In this document: positions 31,380-60,178 of the stretch, one piece after another | How positions within the stretch are numbered: the stretch's first letter is position 1 | How the letters are laid out: the number at the start of each line of letters is the position of its first letter | Origin: Telopea speciosissima | Taxonomy: Eukaryota > Streptophyta > Magnoliopsida > Proteales > Proteaceae | Length of the DNA stretch: 64,000 nucleotides | Assembly (NCBI RefSeq): GCF_018873765.1 | Contig: NC_057919.1 | Span: forward strand, 61,332,484 to 61,396,483 | Reading direction: 5' to 3' | Made by a program: the position numbers and the translations under genes | Notes under the pieces: generated by a model | Told to the model about the DNA's origin: nothing | The model's input: only the letters and a program-made list of their open reading frames with translations | Database searches by the model: none

Positions 31380-31384
31380 TCTCT

Positions 31385-35200: not shown

Positions 35201-35266
35201 AATTCCAATGGAAATTAAATTCTTTTCAAAATCGGAAAGATTTTAACATTTTTCAAAGTTAATATT

Positions 35267-36334
35267 TTACCTCGATGATAGAACCAGGTTCGCTGTCCCT
35301 TGTTGAGCCACTTCCACGACGTCTCCATTTGCAACAGTGACAGTCTCTGCTACTTGAACAACATCAGTGAGCAGGTCCTTGCTATTGCAAACATGACAAG
35401 TCGCTCCAGAGTCTAACCACCAATCTGAAGATGTACTGGCCAACCCCTTACCCTTGCCAACCATGGCAACAAAGTTAGTAGGCTCAGTCTTGTCCACCAG
35501 CATGTGAACTTCCTTCTGTGGTGTGTCAGTGTTCCCTTTCTTAGGACCCCTACACTCAGATGCATAGTGACCCCACTTTCCACAGTGCGGCACTTGCCCC
35601 TCTTTTTAAAATTAGTCTTTTTGGCCTCCAACTGTTGGGGTTCTTTCTTAGGTGGCTTGGACTGCCTAGGATATTTCTTGGGTTGTGAAACCAAATTGGC
35701 AGATGCCTGTTGTTGTTTCACCATCTCCAAGTTATTCCTGGCTCTGTTCTCATCTTCGATTCTAATGAACCGTTTGAGATCATCCAGCCCCACTTGTGTT
35801 TTCTTTCTGTGCATCTCAGTTTTAAAGGAATGCCAGGTAGAGGGTAACTTAAAGATAATTGCACCCACTAAGAATGCATCAACAACGAGGATGTTTTCTT
35901 GGTTCAATTTTGTTCTCAAAGTCTGTTACTTGTGGAAGTATCTCCTTATCTTCTTGAAACTTGAAGTCCATAAACTTGTCAACCAAGTGAGTTTTTGATA
36001 GGTCCTCCTCCTTTTTGAATTGGGCTTCTAGGTTTTCCCAAATCTCTTTTGCAGTCTCATATTTACTATAGGTCTCTGCCAGCCTATCTGACAGGCAGTT
36101 CAATAGGTAGTCTTTGCAAAAGTCTTCGTCACTTATCCATTGGGCTTCAGTTAGGTCCGTACAATCAGAAAATTTATTTACTACAGTGTAGAAAATATTG
36201 AGGTACTTCAGTCCAAACTGAGTCCTCCTTTTCCAAGAACTGAACTCAGAGCCACTAAAGCTTTCCAATTTGATCATCTCAATTGGAACAGCGTGTTTCT
36301 CCATATTAAGTGATTTGTTTATATGCCCAAACAA
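35267..36334 (-). pseudogene. gag: Copia-1 gag and protease (frameshifted)
   Basis: Three overlapping frames cover one protein: 36334-35879 (gag core, IKLESFSGSEFSSWKRR), 35919-35413 (gag C-terminus, basic linker) and 35593-35267 (zinc knuckle GKWGHYASEC, then the protease active site WWLDSGATCH). Frame changes near 35900 and 35590 prevent a single product as sequenced; they may be partly sequence error (see findings). Confidence 0.85.
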
Positions 36335-36750
36335 AAGATCAAATAAAAAAATAAATGCTCAAGGAACAGTCACACCTGAGATGGAGAACCCTGGATTTAG
36401 ATGAAGGAGGAAAAGATCGCGACGGTGCAGCGGTATCGACACTTGTAATGTACACGCTAATGCAGGCTGCTAGCGCGGATGTTGGCTGCTCGCAGATAAT
36501 GGCCGAACCCAAAAAGATTTGATAAATTAAATCAAAAGTGTCCTTTTTTTTTTTTCAATGAAGGACAGTCAATTCAATGCCTTGAAAACGACTTTGAGTA
36601 AAGAGCTTGCTGCCAAGTGCCAGCGATCAAATCAATGCTGATTTTTTTTTTTTTTTTAATAAGGCACCAACACCATAAAGCTTCTTTAGCTTTTGTCAAA
36701 AAAGTTTCTGACAAAACAGAAACGAAGACTACAGAAAGCTTCACTGTTTG

Positions 36751-36788
<38 letters not shown>

Positions 36789-37160
36789 TCAAAAACAAAC
36801 TTTCAACTCCTTTTGTCTCATTCACCTTTAATCAATCAAATCAAACTACTATTCTTTTGAATGATAAATCAAAAAATAATGCAATCAAGGCCAAAGTCGA
36901 TTACACATATGGGCCCAGCATCGTGACGATCTAAGAAATCCTGCAGGTGAATGAAGACATCGAAGCTGAAGCCGATCTCAGAATTCTACAAAACCCACGA
37001 TCAACAAAGCCAATTAACAAAGCCGATCTCTCAATTGAGGAGAAAAATTCTGCAAAAACCCACGATCAAACAGAGCCGATCTCTCAAAAATAAATTGTGA
37101 ATTCGAAAATTCAAAGCCGATCTTGATTGCAGAGAAACAAAAATTCTAATGCTTTAAGAT

Positions 37161-37378
37161 TGTTAGGGTTTAGGGTTTAAGCACAAAGTTGCTTAAAGCA
37201 TTACACCCTGAGTATCTAGTTTGGAATACCCAGACTACTGCCTCCAGCTAGTATATATAGGAAAACTAGGGTTTAGGTCAGATGGGCTAATTACTAAATT
37301 GCCCCTCACAGCCTGGGCATTAATACAAGTAGGATTATATTAGAACATATAAAGGGATATTACATAAATACCCTTACA
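37161..37378 (-). repeat. Copia-1 5' LTR
   Basis: Same ends and length as 31385-31602; one difference seen (GACTAC against GACTGC). Confidence 0.95.
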
Positions 37379-37383
37379 TCTCT

Positions 37384-37657
37384 TGCATACTTACAATCGA
37401 GAAATAGATGAACCAGTGATTCCTCCTCCTTTAAACATTGCTCACATCTTGATACAAGGTAGGTATTCTTCTTCCCGCCATTTTGGTTTCACATCTACTG
37501 CAAACGGTGAGGAATGTCCACAACTAGCTGAAAATTTTGGTTTCATAAATATCTTTTCTTTCTCACAAATTGAATGTATGCCCATGCAAAACATTAGTGG
37601 TGAATCGTGACAAGAGTGCGAAAAGGGTCTAAAATTGTGGTTTGATCCAAACCCCAA
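37384..37657 (-). pseudogene. LINE ORF2 zinc-finger (zf-RVT) remnant, other side of the Copia (unit 1)
   Basis: The minus strand encodes RCEQCLKEEESLVHLFLDC followed by KYA, a C-x2-C...H...C zinc-finger pattern typical of plant LINEs, up to the Copia TSD. The reading resumes across the Copia at 31379 with LWKIFMDVFKVVWP, showing where the LINE was cut. Confidence 0.75.
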
Positions 37658-38933
37658 TCTTCTATTAACGTTATAGGTGTTGGGTAATTGTATTACAATT
37701 TCTTACAAACAATTGATATATCACAAGATGCAATACAATAGCTTAAGCAGTAGAAACTAGGTTGTTGTTATTTGACCTTTGGCTGAAACATGAAGAACAA
37801 ATCTTGAATTCGATGTTGAGTCACACCGCAAGAACTTAAACAAACTGCAAACAGAATTAAGTATTAAATAAACCAATACCCAATCACATGTTTCTCACTT
37901 TTTTAGTGCATAGGATGAAGTAAATAGAAAAAAAGCAAGGTCAATTAGGGCCAACCGAGCCCAGCCCGATCAGGGTCAATCAGGGCAGGGCTGAACTGGG
38001 CTGAGATAATTGAGCCAGACCTAGGGCCGGGCTGGGCTTGGGTTGAGCTAAGAGGACTTAGGGTTGGCTAGGGTTTTAAAAAACCCGGTCCTGTTTCAAC
38101 CCTACTCCTATTGCATACAAAAGCATCCATCAAATAAAGTCACATTACTCTTGTCTTTTAAATCAACCCCAAAGGAACCATTTTAATCTATGTAATCCAT
38201 AAGTCATTTAATAACTAAATAGTTAATCAAAATGAAATAATAATAATTACATACTAATTAACATCTCTATTACTAATATCCCTCTTAATATACCATAACC
38301 ACTTAATTAAAGTAGTTTTAAGTATCATTAGGTTAGATCAAATTGATCCGAACCAAACCGATTCAATCAACTACACTTACTTTAATCCTAAAGTGTCATT
38401 TATATTTATTAATTAATAAATAATTATTATAAATAAATTAATGCCAGTAGTGAAGTCCATAAAAATATGTTCTTGCAAAGGATTTCAACTTATGTTTAAA
38501 TTATAAACCTCTCTTTAAGTTGTGTCTAGTTTTTTTTCTTCCAATTCCAAGATGGTTGGGGAGAAGTTTAACTAAGAGTTGATCATCATGATGGTTCATG
38601 GTTTTAAAACTTGAAATCAAAAGACTTGATTCAAATCGGAATCAACTGCTCTCGATCCCATGAATGCATTTGGATCCTCATTTTGGGCTATTTTCCTCTT
38701 CTTTAGTACCAACATAGTATAATCAATGAAAATTACCTCTTATAGAAAAAATTTACAAGTGTTTTCGATAGAAAATTTTTAAAACCCATAGATTTGAGGG
38801 AATCCTTACTTCCTCTACCCGTTCTCAATTTTTTGGGGCTTAGAACAATTTAGGCGGATTTCTATCAGAATCGATAGAGGTTAATTTTGGGTTTTAAACC
38901 TTGTGATGTTTATCTTGTTCAAAATATTTACAC
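37658..38933. other. intergenic, AT-rich, with a hAT-like relic
   Basis: Contains a degenerate AGGGCCAACCGAGCCC...CAACCCTA segment (about 37945-38106) related to the 25962 element, with no TSD found. The remainder is AT-rich with no gene signal. The counterpart in unit 2 is about 55443-56715. Confidence 0.55.
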
Positions 38934-39108
38934 GGAAAATTATCACCTCAATTTACCTGTCCGTCAATTTCCTCAGTTCCCTCTAATAAAGGGAGGTGGA
39001 CCTCACCTGGGCAATGTGTTCGGGCAGGGGTAGGGTGGTTATTTTCACCCCCTATTAGATGGAATTGAGGAAATTGAGGGGCAAGTAAATTGAGGGGATA
39101 AAGATCCC
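38934..39108. mobile_element. Mutator-like MITE of the TTATCCTCTCAA family (unit 1)
   Basis: Near-palindromic 175 bp with arms containing CCTCAATTTACCTG...CAATTTCCTCA and their inverse, ending GGGGATAAAGATCC. Flanked by ATTTACAC on both sides (38926-38933, 39109-39116). Confidence 0.75.
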
Positions 39109-39116
39109 ATTTACAC

Positions 39117-39779
39117 CGTGTGCCAGCTAAAAAAAAATTGAGAGAACATGGAGAGAGGTGAGGGTAACTGAAAAAATAAAACAATGAAACTCGTACTGGG
39201 CTAACTTTATTTAAGAAATAAAGATACTCACAAATAAGGACAATTGAAATGGATATAATATTTAGGAAAAAAGATCTCTATTTGTTGGTATTTCCTACGC
39301 CCTCTCACTAGGCACCATGAGATGACGCCTCTGCCCCTTAGTTAGATGCCGGCGTGGTCACCAATTGGCCCAAATGCTTGTGTAGATACCATGTGATCAA
39401 GTAGAGATCAATTGTCCTATTTATTTAAGTCGTCATAGTAATATTTTCCTTGCGATTTGGTCTCTCAACTCAATAATAGCACATAACAGATTTATAGGCA
39501 TGTAAATAATTATTGTCCATTGAAACAAATTATACATAGAATCTTGATCATTGATTGGATGTAAAATCACTTAAAAAATCCTCTAAATGAGTGCGAAAAT
39601 TATTTAAAAAATATGACACCAAGCTTGAAATTTTTGTCCAATTATAATCGGATATCTCTTTCATTCTCAAACATACATTATAAATAGGCTTTTTCTCAAC
39701 TGCCCTCCTTAAAATGCCCATTTGTCCAAATGCACCCTTACAACTTTACAATTTATATGTGTCCCCCACTTCCAAAACA
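39117..39779. other. intergenic, nothing recognised
   Basis: AT-rich DNA with no gene signal; its counterpart in unit 2 is about 56899-57561. Confidence 0.5.
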
Positions 39780-40761
39780 TTGTGACACTTAGTCTAGTCC
39801 ATTAGTCTGGGACATTAGACGTTAGTTTCAGAAAATCTAATGACCAAAATACCCTTGTGACAAAAACCCACCAAAATTAAAGAGTAAAGTGACAAAATTG
39901 CCTTCATCTTCCCCAAATCGTTTAGGAAGAATCAAATCACAAAATCAGGGTAACCAAACAGTTATTCAAGAAGATTCATGTTACAGAATCAGGAGAACCA
40001 AACAGTTTATTTTTTCCGAAATATGAATTCACAGAAAGTCCGTCTAGAGATCCCCATTCAAAATCAATATATGCTCCCACAAATTTATGCAACCAAACAC
40101 AATGTAAACCATTTGAGAAGGATGAACCCTAAAATCAATGAATCTATCTTGCCTCTTTCTTTCCTCCTCTTGTTGCTCCCTTCAAGGGCTCTGTTTTTCC
40201 ACTTATATAGGAGCAGCAATATGATGTAGTTGCCAAACAGATCTCCAAAATCATTGACTGCAGCTGGGATCTCACATTGGATTGACATTACAAGTATGCA
40301 ACTAGAAAAGCATGTGGATCTGGTATTTTTTTTACTGGATTTAAGATGGAGGCTACCACTTGCTAGGTTTTGTACTTTTGCTGTGTTTTATTAACATGCA
40401 TGAATCCATTAAGATGTGCTTGAAATTACCTGTTTTGATTTATTAGGGGGGAAGAGAGAAAAAGTACATCTAGTGGTTTCTATCATTGTTGATTCAACAT
40501 CGTCTGTTACAATTTGAGAAAGAGACAGCAAGGATCAAATTCATGTTAGTGACTGATGGATCAATCACTTGGACGGAAGATGAGGGCAATTTGGACTGGA
40601 TAGATTCATTGATTTTAGGGTTCATTTTGGGAAGATGAGGGTAATTTGGTCACTTTAGTCTTTAATTTTGGTGAGTTTCTATCACAAGGGTATTTGGTCA
40701 TTAGATTTCCTGAAACTAACGTCTAATGTTTCAGACTAACGGACTGGACTAAAGTGTTACA
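39780..40761. mobile_element. TIR element with ~140-bp arms, about 0.98 kb (unit 1)
   Basis: The left arm (39780-39920: TGTGACACTTAGTCTAGTCC, then TTAGACGTTAGTTTCAG) is the inverse of the right arm (about 40620-40761). The interior has no transposase; short frames at 39978-40288 are not gene-like. TSD not resolved. Probably a non-autonomous DNA transposon. Confidence 0.7.
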
Positions 40762-41430
40762 AATAATAAACTAATATTAAGAGATAATACTTGGGTCGGG
40801 GTATTACATTTGATACGTTTGTTTAGTGGGAGTCTGTTTTCCCCCTTTTTGGCTATTATTTGAGCTCTTTATTTGGCCAGTGGTTTTTGTATTCTTTTGT
40901 CGTCTTAATACATTTACTGGTTATGATTTCATTATTTATTCTTATATGACATTTCTTACGAAATGGTGATTAGCCATAGGCGGTATTTAGCCAAGGATTC
41001 TAAAATGGTGGTTAGCCATAAGCAGTATTTAGCCAAAAATTCTAAAATGATGGTAAATCATGGACGGTGAGCCAAAGTATGGTATTAATTCAAGTTCATG
41101 ATGGTTTTGCCCAAGTATGAGTTAATGTCAAAGTGTACTACCTGTGAGGATTTTTAAGGTAGAGGACCAACAAGGAAAGAACATTTACTTGGTGATCACT
41201 TGTTATGCTCCTATTTCCTTGTTTATACATATATCCAAAGCAGCTCGCGTTAATAGATCATTTGTGACTGTGATGACAGAAAGTTGTATGTCGTATGTTG
41301 AGGCATGTTTTCTCATTGCCGTTCGACACAAGTGGCTATTAACAAAATCAAAGTAATTTTGAGTGGGAGATTGGGACTCTGGCCAAATCTAATAAAAGAT
41401 ATGTGTATTAATTTTGCCTAAGTGGGAGAT
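40762..41430 (+). mobile_element. probable 3' end of a decayed LTR retrotransposon (unit 1)
   Basis: No intact frame. The segment ends with GTGGGAGATTG words at about 41363 and 41421; the second, AAGTGGGAGAT, is the standard polypurine tract just before a TGTTG LTR start. TAGCCATA...GGTATTTAGCCA words are repeated at 40970-41040. Confidence 0.45.
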
Positions 41431-41792
41431 TGTTGGGTTCTTGGGCTACATTAATACACACTTCCTTTATTGGGTCCATGAATTAGTTAGCCACTCTAGG
41501 TTTTAAGTTAGGGGTATTTCTAACCTAACACATTGTGGGAGTGTGTGAGGGTCATGTTGAATAGTATATATTCAACCCAAGGTCCCCACAACCGTCACTT
41601 GATTTTTACTAATTTTCCTACTCTCGGGAGATTTAAGAGAAAGCTTATGGAAGGCTATTGGGAGCTGTAAAAGCTTAGGGATCGACTACAGCTATCAACC
41701 AAAAAGATATGTCATTTATTCCTTTGTTTATTCATTGTCTTCCAAACCTGTATGGGATTCTATATGATTGATTAGTGATCTAAATCACAACA
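41431..41792 (+). mobile_element. LTR (362 bp) downstream of TPS-B
   Basis: Starts TGTTGGGTTC directly after a polypurine tract and ends CAACA. The inside resembles the relic at 17459-17682. No matching second LTR was found. Confidence 0.55.
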
Positions 41793-42538
41793 CACCACTG
41801 CTTGTCAATAGAGCTAAGAGCAAGCACTTGAGTAAAGAAACAAAAAGGAGAAGACTAAGAAGAGAAAAGAATAGAGTGAGAGAAGTGTTGAGAAAACAAT
41901 GCCCAAAAGTAGTGATTGACAGAAGAAATACAAAAAACAGAGAAGAACAAACACACAGGTTTTACGTGGTTCACCCCCAAGATGGAAGCAACATCCACGG
42001 TCGAGCAATAGAACGAATTTTACTATTCTCTTGAAATGTTACAAACCCTCACTTACGGCCCTCGCAGAGATATATAGAGAGAAGCCCTAACCCAAGAAAG
42101 TACAAAAATGCCCCTGGACCCAGAAATTGTCAAATCGGACAGGATCGGACCAAAACATAACATATATCCCAAAGTATACCGTTTTGAAGGTCTCGACGAG
42201 CCAAACACAACGCACAGCCTATGGCGGTGATGTACGTCGTTTTTCGGCAATCCGAGATTGTTTCGAGGGTGAAATGGCCCTCCAAAGATCTCAACTGCAC
42301 ATTCTAGACCGAAATCAAGCTTCACCAATAACTAGAAGTATGAACCAGTGATAGATCCAAAATAATCGATCCTATCACTTATTAGTATAATTTTATTTAT
42401 AATAAACTATAATATAATCCAAACCCGGTACAATCAAACAACCAAAATAGGAAAGTGTCCTAAACAACAACTAAGACTACTAACTAACATAAAAATAAGA
42501 CTCTCTCACAATAGGGAGTCACAAGTAGCTCAGTACTA
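41793..42538. other. TPS-B 3' flank with LTR-leader-like sequence
   Basis: Contains TTTTACGTGGTTCACCCCC and CATCCACGG, words typical of plant LTR leaders (41955-42000), so part is probably another LTR relic. Frames on both strands are small. The TPS-B 3' end lies in the last 200 bp. Confidence 0.5.
42392..42397 (-). terminator. candidate poly(A) signal of TPS-B
   Basis: AATAAA on the minus strand about 140 bases beyond the stop codon. The same hexamer is at 60173-60178 for TPS-C. Confidence 0.5.
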
Positions 42539-45117
42539 CTAGTACATGGGTATGGGATCGACAAACAATGAGGTGATGAGCTCCTTCAATATTTCATTAG
42601 CAAAAGTGAAACCATCTTTATACTTGTAGAGCACATCAATATTACGATCATAGTTAACAAACACTGATAGAACTGACCTTGGGACAGCTGCAGTAGTCAT
42701 CATAGGTTTCATGCACGCTTCATTTACATCTTTCCATGCGTCCACCAATCTTCTATTAAATTCATCATATACCTCTTGTTCTGACACATCATATTGCTTC
42801 ATGTAGCACTCCACAGCCGAACAAACATGCCCTCTCTCTTGCTCAAACTTCAAAATAATATTCAAATTTATACTAGCTTAATTTAATGATGTACTAATTA
42901 AGTAAGAAAAAAAAATCTTTGAAATTAATTAATTAATGTACCTTATGGGCCTTCATATCATCCATGAGTCTGAAAATTAAGCTTGAAGCCTTCATAAGCT
43001 TTGGATTATTCATTGCCCAAACAAAGGTTTCCTTTGTCACAAAATCTCCCATGCCAACCAAAGAATAGACTATTAGCAAGATATACGCAATGCTGGTTGA
43101 TGCATTTTGCATATACACTTCGAATGTTGGAATATATCCATCCTTCAACCATTTGGCCTCCATGAAGTAGCTTCTAACTTGTGTTTTCATCTGGAATGAA
43201 ACCAATTAAACAAACCCAACTGGTCATTAATTATTAGAATTTTAAGTAGTTTTTAACATTTTTTCACTTGTCTACTTGAGATACCAACAAATAAATCAAA
43301 ACTAGCTAAAAACTCTTGTTTTATGTGTTTCTAAAATCTCATCATCTTTGAGAAGAGAAACAGATAAAAGAATAGTAACCCAATAGTAGATCCAGTTATT
43401 GGTGATCACACACCGCTTCTTTTGCATAGTAAACACGATAAGATTGTCCATCCTTTCCAAACTCTTCCTCGATTTCATTGTAAAAATCTAGGAGTGCCAA
43501 GTAGATAACTTTCATGTATTCAAGGAGTCCATCCATGGCGCTATGCTCCGACCTGAAAATTAAGCAATATATTCAACGAAAACATGAAGTTCGCGTAAAT
43601 CAGCAAAGTCACAAACGGGCCAAGAAAAAATTAATATTATAGAATGGATCCTCTGCACGTATGTTCACCTGCATGTACATGTTAGGTGCCAACATCTATC
43701 CCTATGCTTCCATGTATACCCTTTTTCATCTTTTAAATGGTAAGAAGTGGGATAGATGTTGGCACCTCACGTGTATGTGCAGGTAAACGTACGTGCAGAG
43801 GAACTCTCCTTGATATGTCACCGATAATGTCAAACCTCTCAACTGCATCTGTGAAGAGCTGGAGTTCTTCGAAGGTACCATACGCATCGTATGTATCATC
43901 TATAATCGTGATCAGGGCTGTAACTTTGGTTATCATCTTTCTAGCAAGAGCATACTGAGGCTCAAAACACAACCCCATTGCAACAAAATATGTCTCCACA
44001 AGTCTGTCTCTAGCATAAGGTAGCTTTGATACAAAGTCCAATTCTTTCCACCATCTGCAATTAATTATACATGTATGAATATAAATATCATTATACATCA
44101 TTATAATTATTCAGATATATGATAGATAGATGAGTTAGAATTATTAGGTTACTTTGAGAGTTGGCTTAGCTCCTGCTGGTGGATGGACTGCAGTAGATTG
44201 AAATCTAGTTTTGCAAGCTTAAGAAGAGATTCATTCTTTGTATTGTAGTCTTCTTGGTAAATAGAGATGTAGTCCCTAGCTTCTATCCTTGGCGGGTTCT
44301 TGTGAAAGGGTTGTTTCAAGGCATGCATCACTTGTGTTGCAAGAGGATGAGGTTTTAAACCATCAGTGACTATGGAATTAAGTCTAGTGGTTGTGAACTC
44401 TAGGGCTTCATCTAGAATATCTTCTCCATGTACCCTCAAATGTGTAGCTTCATACAAGCATAGCATCCCACTCACATCATTAATGAAGTCCTCTTCCTTG
44501 AATCTTTTGAAAACATCTGCAATATAATTCACCACACCACCCAAATGGTGATGACCAAATGATCAATAATCTAAGTTGAAGACCATAGAGACATGGCCAA
44601 CAAAGTATAAGAATGACCAAGCAAGCAAGATTGAGTTAGCTACCTATCTAGATAGGGACTTACCACAAGAGACATTATACCCTTGCTGTCTCAGTAAGCG
44701 AAATCGCAAAGCCACGGTATAAAGATCATCATTGTCATCATCAAAACCATGATCTGGGACTTCATGTATCTGCTCCAGTATCTCCTCAATCTCTTCTTCA
44801 AAGTGATATGCCACACCAAGCCTTTGCAATGAATCAATCAAGCTCAGTTTCTTTAAAGACTCATTATTAGCATCACCCACTAGCATCCTTCTCACTTCTT
44901 CTTTCAATTCATCAACTTGTTTGAGACAAGCCTCATACATCTGCTAAAACAAATATTTTCTGTCTTTAATTAGTACAATGCAAAATATTGCTATAATAAA
45001 CACAATATAGCAACTTTAGTAACTCATTGTAGCCAAGTAAAAATAATAAGTAAATTCTTTCATTGTTGCAGAAACTGACAAAAGAAAAAGAGGGATTTTA
45101 TTAAATATAGTTGTAGA

Positions 45118-45169
<52 letters not shown>

Positions 45170-45755
45170 TTAAAGATTGCAACTTTGAAAATAATATAAT
45201 GAGAGAAGGTGTCTACTTTTAGTTTACAATTTTGGAATTTTTATCCTCTCAATTACACTGCCCGTACTTGACCTCAAGTACATCTAATAGAAGGAGGTGG
45301 ACCTCATGTGAACCCCACCTCGGGCAGGGGGTAGGATAGTCATTTCTACCTCCTCTATTAGATGTACTTGAGGTCAAGTACGGGCAGTGTAATTGAGAGG
45401 ATAAAGATCCACAATTTTGAGGTAGGTAAACCCTAACATCCCCTACACATGTCAAATTTCTATCCTACAAGTGGATTTGAATTTAGGTCTGAAATTTGAC
45501 ACGTGGTTAATCTAGACCCATGTCTTAGGTATTCAATGGTACATTTACCATTTGATCCTTCTTTTTGACATGGTGAAATTAGGGTATCCAACCATAAAAT
45601 TTAAAGAACAAAAAAAATTAAATAATTACCACATCATCAAGAGGAGCATATGTGATGAAACGATCACCCCAACAGCTAGGATGGAAATTGGCTAACGGAC
45701 GAATTATCTTTGTGTTTATATTTGGAGATGCAGCAAAAGAAGATTGGAGAGACAT
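42539..45755 (-). CDS. TPS-B: TPS-a type terpene (sesquiterpene) synthase, chimeric
   Basis: Exons: 45630-45755, 44664-44943, 44153-44516, 43836-44054, 43414-43552, 42942-43190, 42539-42847; GT-AG borders and phases join into 561 residues, normal for the family, with the seven-exon plan of angiosperm TPS genes. No transit peptide; RP-x8-W at residues 19-29 suggests a cytosolic farnesyl-diphosphate cyclase. Catalytic landmarks: RDR 272-274, DDTYD 309-313. The second metal motif reads DDMKAHKFE (453-461), with Ala457 where Ser/Thr is expected. At the exon 4/5 join it reads R-S-E where TPS-C has R-W-D, and L-L-E-Y where TPS-C has L-P-E-Y. Exon 1 matches TPS-A, the rest TPS-C. Product unknown; activity uncertain. 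Confidence 0.9.
45120..45166. repeat. (CT)n microsatellite in TPS-B intron 1
   Basis: About 23 CT repeats, absent from the TPS-C intron, which has a short local duplication instead. Confidence 0.95.
45235..45410. mobile_element. Mutator-like MITE in TPS-B intron 1, 176 bp
   Basis: Nearly perfect inverted repeat: ends GAATTTTTATCCTCTCAA and TTGAGAGGATAAAGATCC, with arms of over 50 bp. Flanked by a perfect 9-bp TSD ACAATTTTG (45226-45234 and 45411-45419). The TPS-C intron has the unoccupied site, CTACAATTTTGGGGTAGG at about 63058-63075. Confidence 0.95.
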
Positions 45756-45910
45756 CTTTCTTAAATTGAAATGGAGAAACAGAACTATGGTTTAGGTTTT
45801 GGAAGACAAATGAAAATAAGATGGAAATGTGCAAAACTAAGAAGCAACACCTATTTTGCTTCAAATGATAAATATGGAGTGCAAAGGAACAACCTGACTT
45901 GCTATTTATA
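45756..45910 (-). promoter_or_regulatory. TPS-B core promoter with TATA box
   Basis: TATAAATAG on minus at 45902-45910, 147 bp before the ATG. The 5' leader and proximal promoter match those of TPS-A almost base for base. Confidence 0.65.
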
Positions 45911-46040
45911 CTTGGTCGATCTATGGCCTTTAGAACACCTTTTTTTCACAAAATTGTAGAAAAGTGGGGGATAGGGCGTGAAGAGCACATTCCAGTCTGC
46001 CGACTAGAGGGTGAGAAACTAACAACCCATTGCATCAATC

Positions 46041-46590
46041 ACTTTTTTACATTTGAAAGTCACTTTTTTGCTAGGGCTACTCTGTAGCGCGACAGGGAGT
46101 GTAGCCCAAGCACTACAGGCTATTGGATGTGTACTACACTCCTGTTGTGCTACAAAGGACCCAAATCCCACTTTTTTAGAGCCTCGAAACCCGAATTTTG
46201 ATCTTCTCAAGTGTGGTATCTGTTCAGTACATCATACTTAAGAATCCAATGATAAAAACATAGGCAGTGGAGTCTTTTTATCCTCTCAAGTGTTGGGTAG
46301 AAGATTGAATTGGGCACTACACCACACTTGAAAGGACAAATTTCTGTGTTAGATTTTAAAGGTGAATAAGTGCAATGTCCAGCATCAGATGCACTTTAAG
46401 GTTACATTGGGCCATCGTGCACTAGACTTTTTACCAAAAAACAAAAAGGACCAAATGTTCTTTGTGCTGGGGATGCAGGTTGTGCCCAGACACATGGGGG
46501 TGGGCAAAATAACCACCCTATCCCCCAGAATGGCAGATCCATGTGTCTTGACACAGGTTGCGTTGCAACGTAGAAAACATCGACCCAAAA
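46041..46590. mobile_element. miniature-element cluster in the TPS-B promoter
   Basis: Same three pieces as 28125-28740 (stem-loop, CTCTCAAGTG foldback, CACATGGGGGTGGG MITE at 46447-46586), differing from unit 1 at about 2% of positions. At this position TPS-C has only CATCAATCACAAAAAAAC (about 63635-63652). Confidence 0.7.
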
Positions 46591-46978
46591 AAACAAAAAA
46601 AAAACCTGGAATTGAGAGGTGAAAGTTCCAAGACCCATGCTTACCTTGGCGGTGGATCCAAGACACCTGAGAAATGGATTTCTGCAGCGGCCCCACTGGA
46701 ATACATTTTTCATATTGTCAGCATATAACGACAGAGCTATGTGATGATGGTGTTGGGGTCCTCCTATAACGTAGATTGCAAATTTTCAAGACCCATTTGG
46801 AATCTTTTCATGGATTGTTTTGGACTTGAGTGGCAGCCGCCGTTAACTGTACAAGAGTTTGAGAGACTTTGAAGCCTTATCTTCTAAACTTAACGGCACA
46901 ATTAACGGTGTATGTCGGACCTTTCCTCGTCCTCGTACAATCGTTTCTTTAGTCTATTGGTGGCGTCATGCATAATGA

Positions 46979-47816
46979 AGTAACGCGAGGGAGATTGAGA
47001 ACAGAGAGAAAGAGAAAACACACACAGAATTTTGTGGTTCAGTTTTAAATGGACATACGTTCATAATCAAAGAAAACTTTTTGAGAATTATTGTGGTTCA
47101 GTTTTAGACGTACGTCCACAGTCAAAAAAATATTTCTAAGAATTATTGTAGTTCAGTCTTAGATAGACATACGGTCACAATCAAGGACATCTTTCTGAGA
47201 ATTATTGTGGTTCAGTTTTAACAGACATACGTCCACAGTCAAGAAAATCTTTCTGAGAATTATTGTGGTTCAGTCTTAGACAGACCTACGTCCACAATCA
47301 AGGAAATCTTTCTTATCTCTTTTTGGACAATCCTTATAAAAGAATACTGAAAAATTCTTTACAGAAATAAGATATTTAATTAAGGAAACAGCCTTGCTAT
47401 TATTCTCGTGATTATCCTTTTGATTGAGAAATCCCAATTACTGTGATTGATACCCTTTCTATAATCGTTGAGATGTGTCTTGATTGATGATCTTGTCTGA
47501 TTAATTGATTTTTTTCCAATCTTTAGATGATATGAGAATCTCTTGACCCGATTACTAGATGATGACTTGAAATCTATACCGTTAACAATGCATATATCTG
47601 GTTGAACTAAACTAAATGTGGATGGCTGCTCTCCACGAAATCCGGGGATATTGACTGAATCTAGAGATTTCATATTTAATGGAATTTAATATTCGGCTTA
47701 TCTTCAGCGTAATCTTTCCTACATAGTTGGAGTTTATTATTTTTTTTGTAAATCTCTTGTATAAATCCTCTCTTTAAAGGTCAATTCTTACAAATAATAT
47801 AATATTAACTCTGACA
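46979..47816 (+). mobile_element. probable LTR relic (unit 2)
   Basis: Counterpart of 29130-29966, essentially identical. Confidence 0.4.
47026..47314 (+). repeat. minisatellite, five copies of a ~58-bp unit (unit 2)
   Basis: Counterpart of 29177-29465, with no copy-number change between the units. Confidence 0.92.
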
Positions 47817-48393
47817 TAGTATTAGAGATGAACAAAGCTCACGTCACCATCTCCCTCCCCTCCCCTAGTCGGCTCCTTTCTTTCTTCTTTCTTTCTTTTC
47901 CTTTTTTTTTGTATGGAGACCAATACCTCCACCGAAGCTCCCCCCTCCCCCATTGCCATTGCACTCCTCACTCCCTTATGGCCGAACCCACCATGGCCAC
48001 TCCCATCGTGGCCACCCCTATGGCCACTCCCCTGTGGTCGTGCCCTCTTTGGCCGTCCCCTTGCTGCTTCCTCTCTTCTCTCTACCATTTTTTTTTCCGC
48101 TATAAGGTCAGTAATGAATATAAAGAAAACAAGAAAGGTACAAGATTAAAGTCTAGGCATACCTAAATGGAATACAATACACTGGAAACCCCTAGCTCCA
48201 CTTTCGGCATGACCATCAACAGAGAGAGGGGAACCCAAGATCAGATTGGAGATCCACCTTCGGCATGGCATGGTCATCAGCAGAAACCCCAACTCACCCA
48301 TAAATGACATACAAATATCTAGTATCCTGTACAAAGATTAAAAAAAAAAAAACCCTTCATAATTAAGACAGTTCTTCCCCTAAACTATCCAAA

Positions 48394-49228
48394 ACGATAT
48401 CTAGACTTTCCATAAGCATCATGAGCAACATGATCTTCTTTCACATATTCAGGAAACCTCCTCCAAAATAGAGATTTTTCTGGATTTAGCGGCTTGGTTA
48501 GCTAGAGAGTAAGAAACTTGATTCACCTCTTTATAACAGTGAGTAATTTTCATCTAATTGAAGAAAGAAAAACACTTGAGTTTCTCCAAAGATATTCTAA
48601 ATCCCAAGGAATGGTGACATTTGAAATCGAATCAACTATCGCTTGAGAATCACTTTCAAACCAAATGTGTGTATATACTGTTGCTCTTGATCTTTCAATT
48701 ACATATAGGAAATGCTTGGAATTCCGCAGAAAAACAAGTTTTGATACCCACATAGTAAGAGAAAGCTCCCAATGGATAGCCCTCAAAACTCCTAAAATTC
48801 CACCAAAACCAGCATGACCAGGATTTCCTAGAGAGCACCCATCAATGTTGATTTTAATCCACCCCTCCATTGGTTTAAAAGAACTCTCCCGATGGACACC
48901 ACTATAGAATTAGAAAAGATAACTCCTAGCTTTTTTGAAATCATAAGATCCAATACAGATTTAATTTTGCACTTCATCATAGATGCTGTGTCAATTAGAT
49001 CTCTTTGAACATGTATGAAGACAAATTTGTGATGTTTTCGAAATATATTAAATCTATACGGGTATTCTTTTCCATCCACATATGAAAAGGGATTAAAATC
49101 AAACCCGCCAGCCCAATGCTCTTCAAGTGAACCGCATTTGCTTTTCTTCTCCACCAGCATCTGTAATCATCAATATTATTAACATTCGGCCGACAACTTT
49201 AAAAACATCCATGAAAATTTTCCACAGG
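48394..49228 (-). pseudogene. LINE ORF2 RNase H-like remnant (unit 2)
   Basis: Counterpart of 30545-31379. One difference close to the Copia edge is CCAGAC to CCGAC. Confidence 0.8.
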
Positions 49229-49233
49229 TCTCT

Positions 49234-52200
49234 TGTTAGGGTTTAGGGTTTAAGCACAAAGCAGTTGCTTAAAGCATTACACCCTGAGTATCTAGTTTGG
49301 AATACCGCATCGCTGCCTCCACTAGTATATATAGGAAAACTAGGGTTTAGGTCGGATGGGCTAATTACTAAATTGCCCTCACATACTGGCATTAATACAA
49401 GTAGGATTATATTAGAACATATAAAGGGATATTACATAAATACCCTTACAATCTCCTCCTATGTTCTACATATATCCATTACACATGTATAGGAACCATT
49501 GTTCAATCAGTAATTGAATCAATATAAATTGAATTCAATAATCCAATAAATCAAATAAGAAATAAGTAAACTTCAAGAAATAAAACAAAGGTTTTAGATC
49601 AAAACTAAACCCAACAATAAATCCGAAGTTCCACATGCAAGTGGCTAAACCAAAAGAAATAATCAAAAGGAAAAGTCCTTGCAATCCATGTGACTTTACT
49701 CATCAAGTAAGTCATCCTCATCGAGATCCAGATTCAACCGTTCTCCTCCATCTTCGCCATTCTCTCGTAATTTGTCAAATATGAATTTCATAAGATATTG
49801 TGAATTCAATCATTTGCACAATAGTATCTAGTTCAACAATAAGAACTTAGTACATTTCATATATGGTGAAGGTAAATCAAAAAACAATAAGCATCATCAT
49901 CAAGTTTCTTTACAAGAACTCGATCCTATATAGTCTCTATCATAAGGACCATACCATGTTTCCATTTGGAATCTTGTATTCGTCATATCAGTCATAGATT
50001 TATGTTGTATCATCAAATTTGGAATGGTACACCATACTATGAAAGACATGTCATCAAATTTGGAATGACATAAAGACTAGCACAATATCATTGAAACATA
50101 TCGGACATTTTTCATATTCCTTTGTGGAATAACAAAGTAAGGAGACTTCACATGAAAATTTGCTACACCATCAAGTTTGGAATGGTTTCACAAATCCCCA
50201 TACTTAGTAACCTAACTAAGTTATCGAAACATGTAAATCGTCCCGAATGCTTACCAAGGCTAGATGAGATTCGAATAATTCAAAATAATATTGGGTTAGG
50301 TTAAGACCGACTAAATGGTCTTTAACCCCATCTCCCCGTAGTTTTGAATGTTCGATCTTTGTTCAATCCCTTTGTAAGGGCATCGCCGTATTATCCTTCG
50401 ATCTCACATCAATCAAAGTGATAATCCCTTGTTACGTTCTATAATTCAGCATAGCCTTGTTTCACCTAATGTGTCTCCTCTTACCATTAAAGAGTGAGTT
50501 ATTCACAATCGTCTTGGTTGCTTGATTATCACAGAATATAGATATAGAGTTTAACTTAAAACTCCTCAATGGAATATCCATGATCGATCCTTTATCCACT
50601 CGCTTCATCTCCTGAAGCTAGAGCATAAAGTTTCGATTCCATAGATGAGAGCAATACTAGTCTGTCTTTTGGATTTCCATGCTACTTTGCTCCTCCTAGT
50701 GTAAATACATAACCACCTGGTGGATCTGCTTGTCTCCCAAATCGAGCACCAAGATGCATCGAATATCCTTCCAAAGTTGGAGGATGTCCATTATAACATA
50801 AAGCATAACCTTGAGTACCCTTAAGGTATCTCATCAGCCTCGATAGGGCATCCCAATGCTCTTTTTCAGATTACTAGTGAAACGACTAAGATGCCTACCG
50901 TAAAGGCTATGTCCGGCCTAGTACAACTCATTGCATACATGAGACTACCAATCGGTTTAGAATAATCTAACCGATTCACGATGTCACCCGTGTTAGGTTT
51001 CAACCGTTTGTTATAGTCATAGGGTGTCTCAATTGGTTTACAATCACTTGTATCCCCAACTAGAAAGTAGCTTCTCAATGTAATGAGTCCGACTAAGGGT
51101 GATCCCTTGCTCACTGAAGCTTACTCTCATCCCAAGAATGGTGTCTACCACACCAAGATCTTTCATGTCGAATTCTTTGGACAAGATTTCTTTAATGTCA
51201 CTCACTACGAGAGAGATCGAACCTAGAATCAACATGTCGTCTACATACAAGCAAATAATCGCGACCTTGTTTGACTCGCATAAAAATAAAGGCACTTATC
51301 CGAGTTCTTTGGTTTGAAAACCAAAGCTCTTTCTTGTCTTGTCAAACTTCTCATGTCACAATTTAGGTGCTTGTTTAAGACCATAGAGAGATTTGTTTAA
51401 TTTACAAACTCTTTTTCGAACCTTCCATGACAAACCCTTCAGGTTGGTTCATGTAGATTTCTTCCGTTAGGTCTCCATTAAGGAAAGCCGTTTTTACATC
51501 CATTTGATGCACAACATAGTGCTCAATAGATGCTATGGCAAGAAGAATCCTTATTGTTGCCAAATGGCGACGGGAGTAGATGTCAAAATAATCTATCCCT
51601 CTCACCTATTTATAGCCCTTAGCTACTAATCGTGCTTTATACCTGGCTATAGACCCATCCGGATTAAGTTTCTTCTTCGTACCCACTTACACCCTATTGT
51701 CTTGGCCCCTCTAGGCAGATCAACAAGGTGCCAGGTCTCATTCTCGCATTAAAGAGCTCATTTCCTCATCAATGGCTTCTTTCCATAACAGGGAGTCCCT
51801 AGATCTCATCGCTTCCTTATAGGTGGATGGATCAGCCTCTAAATGGTAGGTCACAAAATCCTCACCAAAATTCTTGGGTACTGATCTCTAGTAGATACTC
51901 TTCTAGATTCCGATTCAAGGAGCATTGTGGGAGTAGTGTCGTAAACAATTGGTTCGATTCCAAAGGTGATTCTCAGAACCACTTCACCAAACCAGCAAGG
52001 TGGGCCTTTATCTCTAAGGAATTTATCCTCAAAGAATATAGCATCCCTAGATTCTATCACCACATTGGTTGATAGATCCAAAAATTGGTCTGGCAAAGAT
52101 GTCTTTCGCACAACCTAGATATACACAAGTGTTTGTTCTAGTTCCCACCTTAGGTCTCCTAGGGTCTTATATCCTAACATAAGCTATCATGACCCCAAAC

Positions 52201-54542
52201 CTTAAGAGTGTCATATCTACGGGATGATTATGCCATAGTTCATAAGGTGTAGAAGTCGGTTTTGAATGTGGTAGTCTATTTAGAATGTGATTTGCGCTAA
52301 CATCGCTTCTCCCCAATAGCAAGAGGGCATACCATTTGTCAATAACATGGAGTTTAACATCTCTCGTTAACGTCCCTGTTCTTTCTTTCGGCTATGCCAT
52401 TTGATTGAGGTGAGTAAGGAGCGATAGTTTCAAGGATTATGCTGCAGAGGCACAATTCCTTGAACTCTGTCAATTTGTATTCTCCTCCCTATCACTTCTA
52501 AATCTTTTAATTTTCAAGTTCAACTGATTTTCTACCCTATTCTTGAAAATTTTAAATTTTTCAAAAGCTTCATCTTTAGATTTTAACAGGTATAAATGAC
52601 AGTATCTAGAAAAATCGTCTATAAATGTTATCAAATACTTCCACCTCCTCTAGTTGTGTAGCTTTTAAAGTCACAAATGTCGAATGTATAAGTTCAAGAA
52701 GTTGAGTGCTCCTAGAAACCGGTCGAACGGTTTTCTAGTTATTTTAGTTTGAGCACACACTTCACATCTGTTAAATCTAATTGAAGTGTCTAATGGTAAA
52801 TTATGAGTTTTAACTAGTTTGAGCATTTTCCTATAGTTCACATGTCCTAACCTACAATGTAGTATTTTGGGATCAAGTGAATTATGGTTAACCTGGTTTA
52901 TTGTCTCATTAGCTAAACTCAACCTAAACATACCATTCAAATTATAAGCACATCCAAAATAAAAGGAGTTAACAGACAATGTTACTCTACCACTACTAAA
53001 AGTAATAGACATTCCAAGATCAAGCAAAATTCCAATGGAAATTAAATTTTTTCAAAACCAGGAAAGATTTTAACATTTTTCAAAGTTAATATTTTACCCG
53101 ATGATAGAACCAGTTCTTGTCCCTTGTTGAGCCACTTCCACGCGTCTCCATTTTGCAACATGGCAGTCCCGCTTACTTGAACAACATCGGTGAGCGGTCC
53201 TTGCTATTGCAAACATGACAAGTCGCTCGAGTCTAACCACCAATCGAAGATGTCTGGCCAACCCCTTACCCTTGCCAACCATGGCAACAAAGTTAGTAGG
53301 CTCGATCTTGTCCACCAAAGCATGTGAACTTCCTTCGTGGTGTGTCGGTGTTCCCTTTCTTAGGACCCCTACACTCGGATGCATAGTGACCCCACTTTCC
53401 AGCCGATTGCACTTGCCCCTCTTTTTAAAATTAGTCTTTTTGGCCTCCAACTGTTGGGGTTCTTTCTTAGGTGGCTTGGACTGCCTAGGATATTTCTTGG
53501 GTTGTGAAACCAAATTGGCGATGCCTCGTTGTTGTTTCACCATCTCCAAGTTATTCTGCTCTGTTCTCATCTTCGATTCTAATGAACCGTTTGAGATCAT
53601 CCAGCCCCACTTGTGTTTTCTTCTGTGCATCTCGTTTTAAAGGAATGCCGGTAGAGGGTAACTTAAAGATAATTGCACCCACTAAGAATGCATCAACAAC
53701 GAGGATGTTTTCTTGGTTCAATTTTGTTCTCAAAGTCCTTACTTGTGGAAGTATCTCCTTATCTTCTTGAAACTTGAAGTCCATAAACTTGTCAACCAAG
53801 TGAGTTTTTGATAGGTCCTCCTCCTTTTTGAATTGGGCTTCTAGGTTTTCCCAAATCTCTTTTTGCGTCTCATATTTACTATAGGTCTCTGACCTATCGT
53901 GACGTAGTTCAATAGGTAGTCTTTGCAAAAGTCTTCGTCACTTATCCATTGGGCTTGTTAGGTCCGTACAATCGGAAAATTTATTTACTACAAGTGTAGA
54001 AAATATTGAGGTACTTGAGTCCAAACTGAGTCCTCCTTTTCCAAGAATCGAACTCGAGCCACTAAAGCTTTCCAATTTGATCATCTCAATTGGAACAGCG
54101 TGTTTTCTCCATATTAAGTGATTTGTTTATATGCCCAAACAAAAGATCAAATAAAAAAATAAATGCTCAAGGAATAGTCACACCGAGATGGAGAACCCTG
54201 GATTTAGATGAAGGAGGAAAAGATCGCGACGGTGCGCGGTATCGACACTTGTAATGTACACGCTAATGCAGGCTGCTAGCGGATGTTGGCTGCTCGCAGA
54301 TAATGGCCGAACCCAAAAGATTTGATAAATTAAATCAAAAGTGTCCTTTTTTTTTCAATGAAGGACAGTCAATTCAATGCCTGAAAACGACTTTGAGTAA
54401 AGAGCTTGCTGCCAAGTGCCGGATCAAATCAATGCTGATTTTTTTTTTTTTTTAATAAGGCACCAACACCATAAAGCTTCTTTAGCTTTTGTCAAAAAGT
54501 TTCGACAAAACAGAAGCGAAGACTACTGAAAGCTTCACTTTG

Positions 54543-54574
<32 letters not shown>

Positions 54575-55162
54575 TTAATCAAAAACAAACTTTCAACTCC
54601 TTTTGTCTCATTCACCTTTAATCAATCAAATCAAACTACTATTCTTTTGAATGATAAATCAAAAAATAATGCAATCAAGGCCAAAGTCGATTACACATAT
54701 GGGCCCGAGATCGTGACGATCTAAGAAATCCCCGCAGTGAATGAAGACATCGGTAAGCCGATCTCGAAATTCTACAAAACCCACGATCAACAAAGCCAAT
54801 TAACAAAGCCGATCTCTCAATTGAGGAGAAAAATTCTGCAAAAACCCACGATCAAACAGAGCCGATCTCTCAAAAATAAATTGTGAATTCGAAAATTCAA
54901 AGCCGATCTTGATTGCAGAGAAACAAAAATTCTAATGCTTTAAGATTGTTAGGGTTTAGGGTTTAAGCACAAAGTTGCTTAAAGCATTACACCTGAGTAT
55001 CTAGTTTGGAATACCAGGACTCATCGCCTCCCCTAGTATATATAGGAAAACTAGGGTTTAGGTCAGATGGGCTAATTACTAAATTGCCCCTCACGCCTGG
55101 GCATTAATACAAGTAGGATTATATTAGAACATATAAAGGGATATTACATAAATACCCTTACA
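49234..55162 (-). mobile_element. Copia-2: duplicated copy of Copia-1
   Basis: LTRs at 49234-49450 (approximately) and 54947-55162; same TCTCT TSD (49229-49233, 55163-55167) and the same LINE insertion point as Copia-1, so it arose by duplication of the region, not by new insertion. Same gene order on minus: gag 53928-53094, integrase zinc part 53027-52671, RT 52111-50866 and an RNase H region to about 50340. Frames are much more broken than in Copia-1, with dozens of 1-2 base indels, mostly at CAG/CTG. No standalone gene is supported. Confidence 0.93.
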
Positions 55163-55167
55163 TCTCT

Positions 55168-55442
55168 TGCATACTTACAATCGAGAAATAGATGAACCAG
55201 TTGATTCCTCCTCCTTTAAACATTGCTCACATCTTGATACAAGGTAGGTATTCTTCTTCCCGCCATTTTGGTTTCACATCTACTGCAAACGGTGAGGAAT
55301 GTCCACAACTAGCTGAAAATTTTGGTTTCATAAATATCTTTTCTTTCTCACAAATTGAATGTATGCCCATGCAAAACATTAGTGGTGAATCGTGACAAGA
55401 GTGCGAAAAGGGTCTAAAATTGTGGTTTGATCCAAACCCCAA
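55168..55442 (-). pseudogene. LINE ORF2 zinc-finger remnant (unit 2)
   Basis: Counterpart of 37384-37657, beyond the second Copia copy. Confidence 0.75.
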
Positions 55443-56715
55443 TCTTCTATTAACGTTATAGGTGTTGGGTAATTGTATTACAATTTCTTACAAACAATTG
55501 ATATATCACAAGATGCAATACAATAGCTTAAGCAGTAGAAACTAGGTTGTTGTTATTTGACCTTTGGCTGAAACATGAAGAACAAATCTTGAATTCGATG
55601 TTGAGTCACACCGCAAGAACTTAAACAAACTGCAAACAGAATTAAGTATTAAATAAACCAATACCCAATCACATGTTTCTCACTTTTTTTAGTGCATAGG
55701 ATGAAGTAAATAGAAAAAAGCAAGGTCAATTAGGGTTAACTGAGCCCAGCCCGATCGGGTCAATCGGCAGGTGGCTGAACTGGCTGAGATAATTGAGCCG
55801 ACCTAGGGCCGGGCTGGGCTTGGGTTGAGCTAAGAGGACTTAGGGTTGGCTAGGGTTTTAAAAAACCCGGTCCTGTTTCAACCCTACTCCTATTGCATAC
55901 AAAAGCATCCATCAAATAAAGTCACATTACTCTTGTCTTTTAAATCAACCCCAAAGGAACCATTTTAATCTATGTAATCCATAAGTCATTTAATAACTAA
56001 ATAGTTAATCAAAATGAAATAATAATAATTACATACTAATTAACATCTCTATTACTAATATCCCTCTTAATATACCATAACCACTTAATTAAAGTAGTTT
56101 TAAGTATCATTAGGTTAGATCAAATTGATCCGAACCAAACCGATTCAATCAACTACACTTACTTTAATCCTAAAGTGTCATTTATATTTATTAATTAATA
56201 AATAATTATTATAAATAAATTAATGCCAGTAGTGAAGTCCATAAAAATATGTTCTTGCAAAGGATTTCAACTTATGTTTAAATTATAAACCTCTCTTTAA
56301 GTTGTGTCTAGTTTTTTTTCTTCCAATTCCAAGATGGTTGGGGAGAAGTTTAACTAAGAGTTGATCATCATGATGGTTCATGGTTTTAAAACTTGAAATC
56401 AAAAGACTTGATTCAAATCGGAATCAACTGCTCTCGATCCCATGAATGCATTTGGATCCTCATTTTGGGCTATTTTCCTCTTCTTTAGTACCAACATAGT
56501 ATAATCAATGAAAATTACCTCTTATAGAAAAAATTTACAAGTGTTTTCGATAGAAAATTTTTAAAACCCATAGATTTGAGGGAATCCTTACTTCCTCTAC
56601 CCGTTCTCAATTTTTTGGGGCTTAGAACAATTTAGGCGGATTTCTATCAGAATCGATAGAGGTTAATTTTGGGTTTTAAACCTTGTGATGTTTATCTTGT
56701 TCAAAATATTTACAC

Positions 56716-56890
56716 GGAAAATTATCACCTCAATTTACCTGTCCGTCAATTTCCTCAGTTCCCTCTAATAAAGGGAGGTGGACCTCACCTGGGCAATGTG
56801 TTCGGGCAGGGGTAGGGTGGTTATTTTCACCCCCTATTAGATGGAATTGAGGAAATTGAGGGGCAAGTAAATTGAGGGGATAAAGATCCC
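56716..56890. mobile_element. Mutator-like MITE of the TTATCCTCTCAA family (unit 2)
   Basis: Counterpart of 38934-39108 at the same position in the second unit, essentially identical. Confidence 0.75.
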
Positions 56891-57561
56891 ATTTACACCG
56901 TGTGCCAGCTAAAAAAAAATTGAGAGAACATGGAGAGAGGTGAGGGTAACTGAAAAAATAAAACAATGAAACTCGTACTGGGCTAACTTTATTTAAGAAA
57001 TAAAGATACTCACAAATAAGGACAATTGAAATGGATATAATATTTAGGAAAAAAGATCTCTATTTGTTGGTATTTCCTACGCCCTCTCACTAGGCACCAT
57101 GAGATGACGCCTCTGCCCCTTAGTTAGATGCCGGCGTGGTCACCAATTGGCCCAAATGCTTGTGTAGATACCATGTGATCAAGTAGAGATCAATTGTCCT
57201 ATTTATTTAAGTCGTCATAGTAATATTTTCCTTGCGATTTGGTCTCTCAACTCAATAATAGCACATAACAGATTTATAGGCATGTAAATAATTATTGTCC
57301 ATTGAAACAAATTATACATAGAATCTTGATCATTGATTGGATGTAAAATCACTTAAAAAATCCTCTAAATGAGTGCGAAAATTATTTAAAAAATATGACA
57401 CCAAGCTTGAAATTTTTGTCCAATTATAATCGGATATCTCTTTCATTCTCAAACATACATTATAAATAGGCTTTTTCTCAACTGCCCTCCTTAAAATGCC
57501 CATTTGTCCAAATGCACCCTTACAACTTTACAATTTATATGTGTCCCCCACTTCCAAAACA

Positions 57562-58543
57562 TTGTGACACTTAGTCTAGTCCATTAGTCTGGGACATTAG
57601 ACGTTAGTTTCAGAAAATCTAATGACCAAAATACCCTTGTGACAAAAACCCACCAAAATTAAAGAGTAAAGTGACAAAATTGCCTTCATCTTCCCCAAAT
57701 CGTTTAGGAAGAATCAAATCACAAAATCAGGGTAACCAAACAGTTATTCAAGAAGATTCATGTTACAGAATCAGGAGAACCAAACAGTTTATTTTTTCCG
57801 AAATATGAATTCACAGAAAGTCCATCTAGAGATCCCCATTCAAAATCAATATATGCTCCCACAAATTTATGCAACCAAACACAATGTAAACCATTTGAGA
57901 AGGATGAACCCTAAAATCAATGAATCTATCCTGCCTCTTTCTTTCCTCCTCTTGTTGCTCCCTTCAAGGACTCTGTTTTCCCACTTATATAGGAGCAGCA
58001 ATATGATGTAGTTGCCAAACAGATCTCCAAAATCATTGACTGCAGCTGGGATCTCACATTGGATTGACATTACAAGTATGCAACTAGAAAAGCATGTGGA
58101 TCTGGTATTTTTTTTACTGGATTTAAGATGGAGGCTACCACTTGCTAGGTTTTGTACTTTTGCTGTGCTTTATTAACATGCATGAATCCATTAAGATGTG
58201 CTTGAAATTACCTGTTTTGATTTATTAGGGGGGAAGAGAGAAAAAGTACATCTAGTGGTTTCTATCATTGTTGATTCAACATCGTCTGTTACAATTTGAG
58301 AAAGAGGCAGCAAGGATCAAATTCATGTTAGTGACTGATGGATCAATCACTTGGACGGAAGATGAGGAAAATTTGGACTGGATAGATTCATTGATTTTAG
58401 GGTTCATTTTGGGAAGATGAGGGTAATTTGGTCACTTTAGTCTTTAATTTTGGTGAGTTTCTATCACAAGGGTATTTGGTCATTAGATTTCCTGAAACTA
58501 ACGTCTAATGTTTCAGACTAACGGACTGGACTAAAGTGTTACA
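57562..58543. mobile_element. TIR element with ~140-bp arms (unit 2)
   Basis: Counterpart of 39780-40761 with about six to eight substitutions. Confidence 0.7.
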
Positions 58544-60172: not shown

Positions 60173-60178
60173 TTTATT
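60173..60178 (-). terminator. candidate poly(A) signal of TPS-C
   Basis: AATAAA on the minus strand about 140 bases beyond the TPS-C stop, at the same place as in TPS-B. Confidence 0.5.

Follow-up and report, generated by a model that had tools for sequence, protein, structure and literature searches.

Unequal crossing-over in register between neighbouring paralogues is well documented for the human anti-Lepore globin genes and the CYP11B1/CYP11B2 fusions, which are single events with known effects on expression; a CYP11B2/CYP11B1 chimera has reportedly been described in a case report. Here we describe TPS-B, the middle one of three terpene synthase (TPS) genes in a 64,000-nucleotide stretch of the Telopea speciosissima genome (the window). 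TPS-B is a chimera whose promoter and first exon are of TPS-A type and whose remainder is of TPS-C type. Like the human fusions, it is flanked by both parental-type genes, a broken TPS-A on one side and TPS-C on the other, and carries the 5′ end of one and the 3′ end of the other. Unlike the human cases, its two arms have diverged unequally and its product looks impaired.

In plants, a similar layout is found at the cucumber Femaleness (F) locus, where, in the sections of PMC7072070 available to us, CsACS1G is an extra copy with a recombinant promoter in a 30.2 kb tandem repeat, an arrangement that the authors ascribe to recombination of adjacent genes and regard as very recent. As described there, the cucumber junction falls within the distal promoter and joins the unrelated genes CsBCAT and CsACS1, and the locus controls a trait, whereas the TPS-B junction lies in homologous exons of paralogues and is known from sequence alone. 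Recurrent exchange between HBD and HBB has homogenised exon 1 and intron 1 in anthropoids, and unequal crossing-over has produced a hybrid HBD/HBB pseudogene in lemurs (PMC4390247, in the portion accessible); there, as in the TPS array, neighbouring paralogues were homogenised, across many species in HBD/HBB and in one assembly for TPS-B. Same-subfamily tandem arrays of Eucalyptus TPS genes have been credited to unequal crossing-over by their within-cluster similarity; in the parts of PMC4464248 at hand the process was inferred without a junction, whereas for TPS-B the junction is located, and the main text of that paper has no word beginning with 'chimeri'. No title that we found in the terpene synthase literature on unequal crossing-over or gene conversion in tandem genes referred to a junction like that of TPS-B. 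We regard the mechanism itself as already known, well known in other gene families and represented by one plant locus, cucumber F.

The minus strand of the window carries all three TPS genes (Table 1). In TPS-B as in TPS-C, seven exons make up an open frame, and every intron is bounded by GT...AG. A candidate exon 4/5 frameshift that would break both genes was rejected, since in the alignment GAGAG is followed by a GT donor and the acceptor is CAG, which leaves both open. TPS-A carries a frameshift and a stop in exon 3, lacks the exon-2 splice donor, has Asn in place of the first DDxxD Asp, and shows CAA at the exon-5 acceptor together with a stop codon. Exon 1 of TPS-C spans 63397-63272 (minus strand). 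The exon 1 proteins read HPSCWGDRF...YAPLDDV in TPS-B, HPSCWGDRF...YAPSNDM in TPS-A and QPSFWGDHF...YAPPNDM in TPS-C. Self-comparison gave a direct repeat, 27758-45109 / 45607-62888 (98%), with the switch marking the ends of its units; measured between start codons, the period is 17,849 bp for TPS-A to TPS-B and 17,642 bp for TPS-B to TPS-C. Each unit holds a retrotransposon, presumably Copia-like as named by its encoded protein pieces. Elsewhere in the window we noted large imperfect inverted repeats at 8484-15017 (arms about 75-90% alike) and a tandem pair of ~1.7-kb repeats at 15794-17458 and 17680-19348 (91.7% identical, each with an inner palindrome).

Table 1. Coordinates of the TPS genes, the switch, the repeat units and the insertions in the window.
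Feature	Position	Strand	Remark
TPS-A exon 1	27781..27906	-	donor-type sequence for TPS-B exon 1
TPS-A body	21889..25913	-	broken copy
TPS-B exon 1	45630..45755	-	42 codons; A-type over the first 96 bp (differing from A at 1 site and from C at 6)
TPS-B exons 2-7	42539..44940	-	C-type body; open, 560 residues including exon 1
TPS-B exons 2-7 singly	44940-44664, 44516-44153, 44054-43836, 43552-43414, 43190-42942, 42847-42539	-	
TPS-C	60320..63397	-	seven exons, 560 residues, open; donor-type for TPS-B body
Switch interval	45642..45659	-	A-type upstream, C-type downstream in gene direction; no difference among the three genes over these 18 bp
Repeat unit 1	27793..45641		from switch-equivalent point in TPS-A to switch in TPS-B
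Repeat unit 2	45642..63283		from switch in TPS-B to equivalent point in TPS-C
Part of unit 1 that is 1.46% apart from unit 2	40042..45060		second boundary at 40042 (unit 2: 57824)
~620-bp repeat insertion upstream of TPS-A	28117..28735		second copy before TPS-B (about 45966-46585), none before TPS-C
Palindromic MITE-like insertion, TPS-B intron 1	45228..45416		9-bp target duplication CAAAATTGT; TPS-C intron 1 is an empty site
Retrotransposon inside unit 1	31384..37382	-	terminal repeats of ~224 bp; unit 2 carries a homologous copy at 49233-55166

At the informative sites 5′ of the switch (TPS-A ≠ TPS-C), TPS-B was A-type in 32/32 and C-type in none, with one B-private site. By contrast, 3′ of the switch it was C-type in 207/213 and A-type in 6, with a further 17 sites that were B-private or three-state. 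The best breakpoint fell late in exon 1, in 18 bp that read TTCATCACATATGCTCCT in TPS-A, TPS-B and TPS-C; 45660 is the last A-type site in TPS-B and 45641 the first C-type site. Over the ungapped three-way columns (B 45598-45965, 46586-46743 and exons 2-7 only), a two-segment likelihood gained 156.8 units of 2dLL, a gain reached by 0/2000 permutations, and the runner-up breakpoint was 7 units of 2dLL worse. A test of the neighbourhood only (B 45590-45965, 23 informative sites) gave a permutation p of 1.2e-4, with site 45592 being A-type on the C side, where the TPS-A intron is no longer homologous. This intron enters repeat sequence ~40 bp past the exon, hence the comparison farther 3′ relies on exons 2-7. 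Insertions tell the same two sides apart: the ~620-bp insertion on the A-like side is common to TPS-B and TPS-A and absent from TPS-C, and 12 bp on the C-like side are common to TPS-B and TPS-C and absent from TPS-A; the intron on that side is likewise common to TPS-B and TPS-C. Since the similarity of A to B ends, and that of B to C starts, within the same 18 bp, one junction explains both, and two independent events would not. The 18 identical bp lie at equivalent codons of the three genes, and a junction that keeps register within two homologous exons speaks for exchange by homology. The junction is almost certainly real in the assembled sequence.

These results bear out much of the preliminary description of this locus, which had proposed a chimera near the end of exon 1, with the switch within ~30 bp at the ends of the 17.8-kb units. 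The exon 1 peptides that it had contrasted, HPSCWGDRF in TPS-A and TPS-B and QPSFWGDHF in TPS-C, were as read from the exons, and the intron-1 string that it had quoted matches TPS-C and not TPS-A. Sliding identity agreed: 60-column windows wholly upstream of the switch were 98.3-100% identical between TPS-B and TPS-A, as against 85-100% between TPS-B and TPS-C. It had also been said that codons 38-42 of TPS-B (PLDDV) match neither parent, which was confirmed by the private bases at 45640, 45638 and 45632, directly beside the switch.

The last 12 bp of TPS-B exon 1 are C-like apart from these three private bases. They fall within 9 bp (45632-45640) and might reflect a third donor, error-prone repair or chance; in simulation, such a cluster anywhere in the compared columns had a p of ~0.03. 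One of the residues in codons 38-42, Asp40, is also found in the paralogue P0001, and in 72 of the 119 homologues listed (120 listed of 3314 found, minus P0002, which is TPS-B itself).

Next, we compared the divergence of the two arms. From the switch to 40041, the A/B arm with the spacer showed 1/4993 mismatches with repeats and an error-like cluster excluded, or 10/5625 with the cluster included, whereas the B/C arm showed 73/5017 (p = 6e-21, or 7e-15 with the cluster). Excluded from this comparison were the 620-bp repeat (19/619), the retrotransposon (153/5913) and intron 1 beyond 45060, and from the stricter count also the error-like cluster up to 38018 (9 mismatches). The unique spacer at 28736-31383 had 0/2646 mismatches and three one-base indels; 38019-40041 had no mismatch in 2023 and no indel; 40042-45060 had two one-base indels. 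The anatomy would fit a single unequal crossover, whether sister chromatids or identical homologues were paired, that made everything at once. A single exchange of that kind, however, predicts one age and hence equal divergence of the arms, so that unlike homologues or a later conversion are needed, and we consider the one-step event highly improbable. The preliminary description had mispairing at exon 1 create the whole duplication: homologous exchange stands as part of that account, and a single event between identical chromatids is disfavoured. The B/C divergence, at 1.46%, amounts to less than twice the heterozygosity of 0.76% quoted for T. speciosissima in the part of PMC13080361 available.

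Upon closer inspection, the divergence between TPS-B and TPS-C is a mosaic, with 12/224 differences in the 5′ part of intron 1, 17/282 in intron 4 and 1/566 across introns 5-6 and exon 6 (heterogeneity p = 1e-12). The 3′ part of intron 1 gave 9/173 (~5%), a value that depends on the alignment, another alignment giving 1/120 for 44941-45060; because of this the test was rerun with intron 1 dropped altogether (p = 1e-8). Such a mosaic requires at least two events, or conversion. We also noted that 43546-43835, which covers TPS-B intron 4 and the start of exon 5, differs from TPS-C far above its neighbouring parts and holds two of the three damaging changes in TPS-B; from its sequence, it looks like a separate conversion tract or a hypervariable allele.

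Conversion could also account for the arms themselves. An older tandem duplication might have been followed by a recent gene-conversion or break-induced-replication tract of ~12 kb, which copied the A-side exon 1, promoter and spacer over their counterpart upstream of TPS-B and ended at the 18-bp switch and at the 40042/57824 boundary. One stroke would then cover both the mismatch-free unique spacer and the 1.46% between the bodies, with two sharp boundaries, and the mosaic shows that a conversion-like patchwork is present here. Yet this sequence of events requires a prior duplication whose own junction left no trace, and in plants a gene-conversion tract of 12 kb would be a long one; we rate this scenario as doubtful.

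The quality of the sequence is uneven in places. Between unit 1 and unit 2, 83 indels separate the two copies of the retrotransposon (66 of one base and 65 missing in unit 2), and their mismatches are clustered in runs. The unit 2 copy looks like unpolished long-read sequence, and because it is full of short indels, dating by the terminal repeats of the retrotransposon was abandoned. This unevenness keeps alive the idea of a mis-assembly, in which the spacer would be single or the order different, two allelic C copies and a collapsed spacer having been laid in tandem. The mismatch-free copies of the unique spacer, beside flanking gene copies that differ like alleles, would also suit such an effect, as would the NCBI protein for TPS-B, P0002, which lacks exons 1-2 and takes its first 13 residues from the unit-2 retrotransposon (53151, minus strand); this start would reflect either a faulty annotation or a transcript driven by the retrotransposon. 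Nevertheless, reads joining a C-type intron to an A-type exon would still be required, and assemblers seldom make joins through a few hundred bp of imperfect homology. Moreover, the MITE-like insertion with its clean target duplication marks intron 1 of TPS-B as distinct from that of TPS-C, indicating that the TPS-B intron has its own history, although it could be that of an allele. Taken together, we consider an assembly effect unlikely.

We therefore favour, with a probability of roughly 55%, the reading that an unequal homologous exchange produced TPS-B as its join product; in this reading, the partners were probably unlike homologues, or conversion came afterwards. For it speaks the single in-register switch (32:0 versus 6:207 sites) at the ends of a direct repeat, as do the near-identity of the A/B arm and a B/C divergence less than twice the quoted heterozygosity; the three private bases adjoining the switch count against it. 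In this exchange, a chromosome with the order A-spacer-C would have mispaired with its homologue, TPS-A exon 1 against TPS-C exon 1, and strands would have been exchanged inside the shared 18 bp where the junction is seen. The product would keep a complete TPS-A and TPS-C at its ends and gain a second copy of the 17.8-kb unit and a new middle gene, with the promoter, 5′ UTR and most of exon 1 of TPS-A on the body of TPS-C. Unlike homologues, or a later conversion, are probable in that the copies of the A side and spacer are virtually identical and the C-type bodies differ like alleles or old copies. It counts against the inter-homologue version that the two homologues must have resembled each other throughout the spacer and differed by ~1.5% within the gene, the transition at 40042 being sharp. 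Mispairing may have been enabled by a 5′ block that TPS-A and TPS-C already had in common from an older exchange. The MITE-like element would then have entered intron 1 of TPS-B, and conserved residues would have been lost, leaving a gene that is probably weak or dead.

The case for an older exchange comes from the comparison of TPS-A with TPS-C. Their 5′ non-coding flanks differ by 7.0% (37/525, ~93% identity), as against 29.7% (120/404, ~70% identity) in introns 2, 5 and 6, the three introns compared (flank versus introns, p = 6e-20), and this suggests an earlier exchange of the same 5′ block. Likewise, exon 1 differs by 5.6% (7/126) and exons 2-7 by 14.1% (216/1537; p = 0.006). The body of P0001 is closer to TPS-C than that of TPS-A is (49/517 versus 111/480), and its exon 1 is not (7/42 versus 4/42); this discordance concerns distances only, the body tree placing TPS-A with weak support. 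From these comparisons, the 5′ blocks of TPS-A and TPS-C seem to have a younger common ancestor than their bodies. A step in the divergence of TPS-A from TPS-C at the very point of the switch did not reach significance (32/481 versus 5/34, p = 0.09). Selective constraint on the promoter could contribute to the 5′ likeness, but is less likely to be the whole reason given 26/315 differences in the far upstream stretch; the TPS-A body, a pseudogene, may have evolved faster.

The likeness of the two flanks also bears on what TPS-B gained. A new promoter and N-terminus, as the preliminary description put it, overstates the change: the flanks of TPS-A and TPS-C were already similar, a TATAAATA box precedes the ATG in all three genes (by 155 bp in TPS-A and TPS-B and by 162 bp in TPS-C), and the A-derived stretch of TPS-B exon 1 brings three residue changes relative to TPS-C (H25, C28 and R32).

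Sesquiterpene synthases of the TPS-a type are recognised by a DDxxD motif, seven exons and the absence of a plastid transit peptide. TPS-B and TPS-C have a DDTYD motif and seven exons, and, judging from the short N-terminus alone, may lack a transit peptide. Both proteins scanned, TPS-B and P0001, matched PF01397 (Terpene_synth) and PF03936 (Terpene_synth_C), and among solved structures (+)-delta-cadinene synthase is the nearest in sequence. A T. speciosissima database protein of 433 residues is 100% identical to TPS-B over 75% of the query. In TPS-B, Ser, Glu and Leu replace Trp330, Asp331 and Pro339, which are kept by 115, 110 and 117 of the 119 homologues listed (of 3314 found). These losses, together with the MITE-like insertion in intron 1, suggest that TPS-B is probably degenerate, a putative enzyme that is impaired, and that the gene is probably weak or dead. 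Over exons 2-7, TPS-B and TPS-C have a dN of 0.0130 and a dS of 0.0129 (20 of 1554 bases differing), which, on these few sites, gives little indication of constraint. When polarised by P0001, 6 of 16 body differences fell in TPS-B and 10 in TPS-C, so that TPS-C too may be relaxed.

Separately, TPS-B, TPS-C and P0001 read DDMKAHKFE or NDMKAHKFE at a site (42942-42965 and 60723-60746 in the window) that we take to be the second metal-binding motif. Its Ala is Ser in 13 of the 14 other Proteaceae proteins matched and Thr in one, P0014 being unmatched. Judging from this residue, the clade may be altered in metal binding.

Unequal crossing-over in plant TPS arrays is invoked, as for Eucalyptus, from cluster similarity; here, the junction is placed within 18 bp. 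Comparing the two arms then serves as a test of the parsimonious one-step story, which fails in its simplest form. We tentatively suggest that the end of exon 1 might be a repeatedly used recombination seam, and that a cassette of promoter and exon 1 may have moved between neighbours at least twice, first between the lineages of A and C, in the older exchange, and then from A to B. The promoter and the enzyme body would then evolve as separable modules, even when the promoter comes from a dead gene. If the exon-1 block was exchanged repeatedly, whole-gene TPS trees would mix two histories, and a pseudogene could still act as a promoter donor.
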